Part shown: positions 47,088 to 57,981 of the stretch, in pieces | Layout: every line of letters starts with the position of its first letter | Numbering within the stretch: position 1 is the first letter of the stretch | Assembly (NCBI GenBank): GCA_009840445.1 | Contig: VXNS01000021.1 | Coordinates: 1 to 64,000 of the forward strand | Direction: 5' to 3' | Length of the DNA: 64,000 nucleotides | Source of the DNA: Synechococcus sp. SB0662_bin_14 | Lineage (GTDB): Bacteria; Cyanobacteriota; Cyanobacteriia; PCC-6307; Cyanobiaceae | Made by a program: the position numbers and the translations under genes | The notes under the pieces: generated by a model | What the model was told of the DNA's origin: nothing | The model's database searches: none | What the model saw: the letters and a program-made list of their open reading frames with translations, nothing else

Positions 47088-47222
47088 AACAACAGAGACG
47101 CCTCCCGACGAGACAGGATGACGTCTCCAAAACGCTGTGAATAGTTTAGGGAGTCTTACCGCTTGTGGTGAAGGGTCGCTTGTGGCAGTAGGCTAGCGAA
47201 TGAATGATGTTGACGTTAATCA

Positions 47223-47357
47223 AGGGCACCACGAAAAATTGGACAAAGCCCTCCAGTGGGCTGCCGTCTCACCATGAGAAAGTCAGTTGTAGAGGGGTTT
47301 TTCATAGAGCAGCAAGCTTCCCCATGCAGGGGGAACGGCAATTTTTCGTGGTGCCCT
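47223..47357. mobile_element. MITE-like element, copy 1 (135 bp) with perfect 19-bp terminal inverted repeats
   Basis: Left end agggcaccacgaaaaattg (47223-47241), right end caatttttcgtggtgccct (47339-47357); internal sequence similar to copy 2. Confidence 0.8.
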
Positions 47358-47897
47358 CAGGTTCGCATATCATTTTTGTTGCAGAACTGCCTTTGATATG
47401 ACAAAATGTTTACGTTTTCTTTTTTGTGCTTCCCGTGTCTGCTGCATCCTCAAAATGCCTGGTGTTCCACCTTCTCCGTTTCACCAAGACACTGGTCGCC
47501 ACCATCCTCACCGTTGCTATGGCCATAGCCATGTCCCTCAAGTGGCCAAGGGATAGGGCCAACAGCAGGGACCGCTAGGGATCAACAAGATAGGGAGTAA
47601 GCCCATCAAGGGAGTCCTTTCCCGGTTGGCGGCCAGTTGCCTCCTTGGGGCCGCGCCTGTGCCATAAGACCTGATGGCCGTGGGGCCAAACTGGGGAGCC
47701 TTCCCCGGATTGATCCCAAACCGACAATCTTCCCCCTATGCATCTTCCCTATTAAGGCAAGGGAAGACATGGGGCCATTGACCCTTCTCTGACGGCCTGC
47801 TAAGTTGGGCCTGGGCTGGCGTAGCCTGCACATCGCCCCCAAGCCCTTGGCTACCCCTTCCTTAATTTATTTCAATGCTTTCCTTTGCCCTTTTCTC

Positions 47898-48400
47898 ATG
47901 CCTAATTCCCTTCCTTCAGGAAAATCCACAGCCTCTAAAACAGTAATACAATTTACCGATAATTTAGGATTATTTTTATTCAGCGTCCTTGTTAGTTCTT
48001 TGCTCTCTCCAGCATTTTTATTTTATCCTATGGCAATGGCTTATGTTCATGGGAAATATCCTTCTGTTAAAGATTTTCAAGCTCTAGTATTTACAGGTAG
48101 ATATATTAAAGGCGCTTTAGTTGGTTGGTTGCTGACTTTAATTCCAATAGTTAGGTATTTCTGCTTTACCTTTTTATTCTCATTTTATTTTCACTACAGA
48201 CAAAGAATCGTTTGAGATTATCGGAGAATCAATATCTAAATCTCTTGAAGAACCCATGTTTATTGTTAAATCTATAGTGTTCCAGACAGTAAGCTTATTT
48301 GGAGTCTGTTTATGTTTTATAGGTCAATTCGCAACAGTCCCTTTAGCTTGTATCTCCTTATATGGTAAAGCTGTTAAGATAATGGAAGAATCTACTTAAA
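47898..48400 (+). pseudogene. Membrane protein gene, apparently frameshifted near 48195-48215
   Basis: Frame 1: MPNSLPSGKSTASKTVIQFTDNLGLFLFSVLVSSLLSPAFLFYP...YFCFTFLFSFYFHYRQRIV*. An overlapping frame continues DKESFEIIGESISKSLEEPMFIVKSIVFQTVSLFGVCLCFIGQFATVPLACISLYGKAVKIMEEST* to 48400. A+T-rich relative to neighbours. Confidence 0.5.
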
Positions 48401-48462
48401 GATTTAAAGAACCTCACAGCACTGAGCAGCTACCCCCAACACTGATAAGCCAACACTCTTAA

Positions 48463-48593
48463 GGGCACCTCGAAAAATTGGGCAAAGCTCTCCAGTGTAC
48501 CGTCCCATCATGAGAAGGTCAGTCCTGGATTGGGTTTCGTCTGGACTAGCCAGCTTTGCCAGGGCGAGGGGACGGTAATTTTTCGAGGTGCCC
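48463..48593. mobile_element. MITE-like element, copy 2 (131 bp) with perfect 17-bp terminal inverted repeats
   Basis: Left end gggcacctcgaaaaatt (48463-48479), right end aatttttcgaggtgccc (48577-48593); same orientation and internal similarity as copy 1. Confidence 0.8.
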
Positions 48594-48644
48594 ATGAGAT
48601 AAAAGTCAACTTTAACATGGACAGACCATCTCAACTCTTTCTTG

Positions 48645-48896
48645 TTACAGAATGTCAGGATTTCCTTCCCAAGTTCCTAGAACTTTTTGAAGAAGGACAG
48701 AATTACTAAGGAGGGTCAGACCCAACAAGAAGATGCCCACCGTATTGCCTATGGTCTGACCTATGATGTATCCGCCCATGGTGGGGCCAAAGGTAAAAAC
48801 CCCATGAAGGGAGCGCAGAACCCCAATCAGCAGGTTACCGACGGCGGCAACCAGGAACAGCAGGGCAACGCCTTTACTTAACGGGGATTGGAGCAT
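48645..48896 (-). CDS. Small multi-TM membrane protein
   Basis: 83 aa: MLQSPLSKGVALLFLVAAVGNLLIGVLRSLHG...GYIIGQTIGNTVGIFLLGLTLL; two or more TM helices. Confidence 0.55.
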   Translation of the reverse strand: MLQSPLSKGVALLFLVAAVGNLLIGVLRSLHGVFTFGPTMGGYIIGQTIGNTVGIFLLGLTLLSNSVLLQKVLGTWEGNPDIL

Positions 48897-49025
48897 GGAA
48901 AGGGGTAAAGGGCCAAGCGTGGATTGTAACAGAGACCATCAAGGCGTTCTGCCTGGCGGGTTGCTCTGAACCATGGGATTCCCTGCCAATCCTTGCTCCA
49001 CAACAAGGAGTTGTAAAAATTAATG

Positions 49026-49096
49026 TTTCTGGTTGTTACGACTTCCCAGTGGGCCTACCCTGTTCCTGGATTCTTCAGAATCCCCACAACCAGAAA
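49026..49096. repeat. Inverted repeat with nested hairpins (possible structured RNA or regulatory element)
   Basis: tttctggttgt (49026-49036) / acaaccagaaa (49086-49096), 11/11 pairing; inner ggattc-ttca-gaatcc hairpin at 49068-49083. Confidence 0.5.
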
Positions 49097-49371
49097 GGAG
49101 GAGAGCCAGCGCATGGTAAAATGGTAAAAACGAAGTGCAACGCAGTGGCAAGGTAGCAGCATCAATTATGTCAAGGAAGGTATGTCATAATTCACAAAAC
49201 TTGATTGCTTCAGAATGTTATAATCCTGGAGTCTCAAGCCGCGCTGCTGGATTTCCTCCAAGGAAACCCTGGCACCCCTCACCCCCAGGCCCACCCCTTT
49301 CAACTGTGCGGCAACGACACAGGGAGCCCGGGGAAAAAGCGGGGTGGGGTGTACATGGATGAGGAGGGAGG

Positions 49372-57866: not shown

Positions 57867-57981
57867 CTCTACACCTCTGTCAGGGTTTCTTAACTCTCTC
57901 GCCAGGCTTCCTCTTTCCTTAAGAATTTAAGGTTTTCTTTTCCTTTCCGGAAACAAAAGAAATCCTCCCCTCCCTTTTCGC

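Follow-up and report, generated by a model that had tools for sequence, protein, structure and literature searches.

A new MITE family with IS5-type ends in sponge-symbiont Synechococcus, and the tendency of its two ends to match

The window analysed here, a 64,000-nucleotide stretch of Synechococcus sp. SB0662_bin_14, carries two members of a MITE family that is repeated in this genome and in most of its congeners. The family is new but of an ordinary IS5-type kind, and its two ends tend to stay matched to each other. We are highly confident that the two window elements represent a type II MITE, 130–135 bp long and non-coding, served by an IS5-family transposase that would act in trans by the mechanism set out below. 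This identifies a repeat family of the sponge symbiont Candidatus Synechococcus spongiarum, together with its likely parent transposase.

Copy 1 occupies positions 47224–47356 on the forward strand (133 bp) and aligns end to end with ~20 copies in its own genome and with copies in nine of ten congeners. Its left terminal inverted repeat (TIR; 47224–47241, forward strand), with A at position 8, is the reverse complement of the right TIR (47339–47356, reverse strand). Copy 2 (48463–48593, forward strand, 131 bp) has TIRs at 48463–48479 (forward) and 48577–48593 (reverse), located by an 18-base end search, which are perfect over 17 bases and have T at position 8. This 18-base end occurs four times in the window at three or fewer mismatches, where 0.11 occurrences are expected and no shuffle reached four. 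The two copies, both with near-perfect TIRs, are 76% identical to each other and share a central block (TCTCACCATGAGAAAGTCAGT at 47267–47287 in copy 1, TCCCATCATGAGAAGGTCAGT at 48503–48523 in copy 2, both forward strand), most columns of which are at least 90% conserved in a 56-copy alignment. The first-pass annotation, made without database searches, had described two related elements with TIR pairs at these places, related interiors and a swap from A at both ends of copy 1 to T at both ends of copy 2, all of which comparison bears out. It had drawn copy 1 as 47223–47357; the element stands, but the outermost A/T pair belongs to the target duplication. The bases flanking copy 1, TCAA (47220–47223) and TCAG (47357–47360), match at three of four positions and are assigned as target-site duplication (TSD) copies from the 4-bp TSD seen across the family. 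For copy 2 the flanks, TTAA and ATGA, do not match and no TSD was detectable in them, so the TSD is not visible from these two elements alone.

The two elements are far from isolated, as is expected of a MITE. The own genome contains ~20 copies, full or partial, nine of which differ by 0–3 bases; exact TSDs are retained in eight of those nine, which points to recent amplification. Within the genus (Candidatus Synechococcus spongiarum group), all but one of the ten genomes carry copies; G001 is the sole congener searched in which neither the MITE nor its insertion sequence (IS) was detected. Within the genus the element measures 126–135 bp, with TIRs of at least 16 bases and no coding signal. 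The window pair belongs to a genuine MITE family. Further genera were searched with a covariance model derived from 56 copies. The search returned at least eight full copies in one of them (g72, genome G080), and elements of 109–111 bp that share these TIRs and have 4-bp TSDs in three others (g6, g23 and g58). The loci of 109–111-bp elements in other genera of the family are L263, L266–L272, L280–L283, L297–L300, L307 and L308, among which L271 is a single 131-bp element. The genes next to the elements, and the relatives, indicate Candidatus Synechococcus spongiarum as the host. A scan of named genomes with the 19-base core TCACCATGAGAAAGTCAGT led to the Candidatus Synechococcus spongiarum group and related MAGs; a match in a Lokiarchaeota MAG had no MITE around it and was taken as chance. 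The MITE had no match in phage records or viral contigs, and a phage or viral origin was set aside. The papers searched contained no earlier description of this family. Its TIR, TSD and length signatures should let annotators spot these repeats across the cyanobacterial family.

Target duplications, which were not clear in the first-pass annotation, emerge when all copies are compared. Among 64 full copies, the four bases left of GGGC equal the four bases right of GCCC in 33, while 10,000 shuffles of the flank pairs gave a mean of 2.0 exact 4-bp matches and a maximum of 8. At other lengths, flank matches number 16 (one base), 1 (two bases), 2 (three bases) and 0 (five bases). The consensus of the duplication is TNNA; of the 33 exact cases, 25 begin with T and 27 end in A. 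To look for empty sites, the flanks of two copies, L173 and L150, were joined with a single copy of the duplication and used in searches. Uninterrupted sites were found for both as gapless matches, for L173 elsewhere among the copies of its host repeat in G003, and for L150 in a related region of G009. The host repeat of L173 is transposase-like, with at least 30 diverged, often adjacent copies in G003 (L206–L214).

A full-length IS with MITE-like ends, which the first-pass annotation had proposed looking for, is present in decayed form in the own genome and intact in G031. The own-genome IS, a single 1.44-kb copy with ends GGGCACCACGAAGAATA / GGGAACCTCGAAAAAAG, has a decayed, frameshifted IS5-type transposase (DUF772 and DDE_Tnp_1; NF033581 at 4.5e-51, above the cut-off). 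No intact IS5-type transposase was found in this genome, a draft of 85 contigs that could hide one, and present mobility of the MITE there is putative and unproven. Related decayed IS copies occur in several congeners. In the sister genome G003, contig breaks hold at least nine IS left ends (GGGCACCACGAAAAATAAG), nearly identical to one another, and four right ends (GGGCACCACGAAAAAA), as would be expected of a recent multicopy IS. G031, which is completely assembled, has five ISs of 1245 bp, four of them identical and each flanked by its own 4-bp TSD (TTCA, TTGA, GTAA and ATAA). Their ends, GGGCACCTCGAAAAAT, match the MITE end exactly, and their 347-aa transposase (NF033581 at 1e-75, above the cut-off) is 64–69% identical to the decayed own-genome protein. 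A 1558-bp relative in G080 is flanked by the TSD TGAA, and an IS5-family element of the alphaproteobacterium Cereibacter resembles these at its end, GGGCACCTCGAAAAATTGCG, and shows a TGCG duplication.

The MITE thus has the same TIR as ISs in G000, G003 (ends only), G080, G031 and G093, which belong to the IS5 family (NF033581, IS5_4; DUF772 plus DDE_Tnp_1), and it shares the 4-bp TSD with that family, but it contains no transposase gene. Judged from sequence, its parent is almost certainly an IS5-family element (NF033581) that would move it in trans. Similarity between MITE and IS is restricted to ~16–28 terminal bases, and descent of the MITE from the IS is for this reason a candidate only. 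A type I MITE, formed by simple internal deletion of an IS, was rejected, as similarity stops 16–28 bases in and the interior is not IS-derived; the family is therefore type II in the sense of a review (PMC10969869), where such elements resemble the autonomous IS at their TIRs only. Like other type II prokaryotic MITEs it is short, non-coding, TIR-bounded and multicopy, and we see no essential difference from them. In E. coli, IS5 duplicates 4 bp of the form Py-T-A-Pu, mostly CTAG (PMC5493358); the MITE and its parent IS agree in the 4-bp length but not in the Py-T-A-Pu, their target being TNNA. A cyanobacterial MITE, Nezha, has been described (Zhou et al., 2008, cited in PMC10969869). The present family is likewise cyanobacterial. 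Nezha is similar in size to the present MITE and has a 3-bp TSD and other TIRs.

In the mechanism we propose, IS5-family ISs with the same ends would supply a DDE transposase that recognises the MITE TIRs, GGGCACC[A/T]CGAAAAAT, in trans. The transposase would cut both TIRs and insert the element into a target staggered by 4 bp, with TNNA preferred, and this staggered insertion would yield the 4-bp duplication. Both the strand-transfer chemistry and the role of an IS5-type transposase as the mover are what we infer from the shared ends and duplication length. The autonomous IS appears to have mostly decayed in the sponge-symbiont lineage while the MITE amplified, recently so in the own genome.

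The covariation of the ends, first noted from the two window copies, persists across 56–64 copies. At position 8, the 64 copies comprise 40 A/A, 15 T/T and 5 A/T, and across the TIRs of 56 distinct copies both-side changes number 23, vs. 10.3 in shuffles. One rival reading holds that the match at position 8 simply marks two old subfamilies, frozen in each of them, with no recurrent covariation. In its favour, well supported branches provide only four independent contrasts, too few for significance. However, each main clade in a tree of the interiors includes both states, and parsimony requires 9–10 changes, at least nine in any case. A correlated-evolution test also fits much better with discordant states left 8 times faster (LR 21.4, p ~4e-6), a p value made optimistic by the uncertainty of this weakly resolved tree. 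We consider the subfamily marker unlikely, though it keeps some weight. In the same test, positions 4 and 5 gave weaker signals, and positions 3, 9, 10 and 15 gave no significant covariation signal. TIR mismatches average 1.4 in copies with an intact TSD and 2.7 otherwise (p 7e-4), so that matching seems to be set at transposition and to decay later; homotypic position-8 ends are not commoner among intact-TSD copies (p 0.73). The first-pass annotation had seen in the pattern either selection for, or coupled replacement of, both ends. The covariation holds, while a special coupled replacement is unproven, matching at transposition followed by decay explaining much of it. The matched A/A or T/T states would best be read as transposition favouring elements with equal ends. 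T is probably the older state and A derived, since the intact IS of related genera has T, as does the alphaproteobacterial IS5-family end; A is also found in the IS ends of G003, where that IS was recently active.

Covarying ends could also reflect base pairing in a transcript, and the first-pass annotation had named a conserved RNA family among the findings that would overturn the transposon reading. The single strands of the two copies do fold strongly (z -6.0 and -4.8), and the excess of both-side changes given above would suit such a structured RNA or regulatory hairpin. But the two strands fold about equally well, the consensus fold of the 56 copies has little strength beyond the TIR (-4.5 kcal/mol), and an Rfam search gave no match above the gathering score. 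An RNA gene would not be expected to insert at many places with 4-bp TSDs or to have empty sites; these largely refute this reading, which we regard as highly improbable. Another alternative is that the element is coding, in a short or degenerate form, and that a small protein starts at the conserved ATGAGAAAGTCAGT core. An ATG or GTG start is retained there in 49 of the 56 copies, with 33 of these frames open to the element end. Yet another same-strand frame is open in 46 of the 56, there is no clean third-position variability pattern (0.62, 0.33 and 0.63 bits), and single-base indels after the core distinguish several copies, which leaves the coding reading hardly credible. The non-autonomous transposon proposed at first pass stands, having come through every check suggested with it, on its copy number, TSDs, empty sites, ISs with the same ends and the absence of an Rfam match.

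A further reading goes beyond the ends, to a constrained MITE architecture with actively selected matched ends and a putative site at which a protein of the host, or a transposase, would bind or bend the DNA; we regard it as rather speculative. In the 131–133-bp family the conserved block begins at position 44. In the 111-bp elements of related genera, most of whose interiors align without gaps above chance, the motif TGAGACTCA stands at position 42 in 9 of 12 aligned copies. Neither central motif is found in the parent IS. A central block held at a fixed distance, starting 42–44 bases from one end and absent from the parent IS, would be an equally tentative part of this architecture, and so would fixed lengths of 109–111 bp in related genera vs. 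~131–133 bp in sponge symbionts, some two helical turns apart. We do not press the helical phasing of 111 vs. 131–133 bp, because lengths within the genus span 126 to 135. A protein-binding site behind the fixed central motif is possible, and it would help to bring such close element ends together. With more than 60 full copies, and an intact IS with identical ends in a complete genome, matched ends, lengths and motifs are all open to test.

Both window copies lie in ~2.2 kb of lineage-specific DNA (47137–49368) between a tldD-like gene and acsF. At least four congeners (G002, G008, G003 and G007) lack this DNA and have only ~0–45 bp between the two genes. Two small open frames in the island had no Pfam family match. 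The stretch at 47893–48391 within it is 75% similar to positions 57953–58450 of contig C48 of G000.
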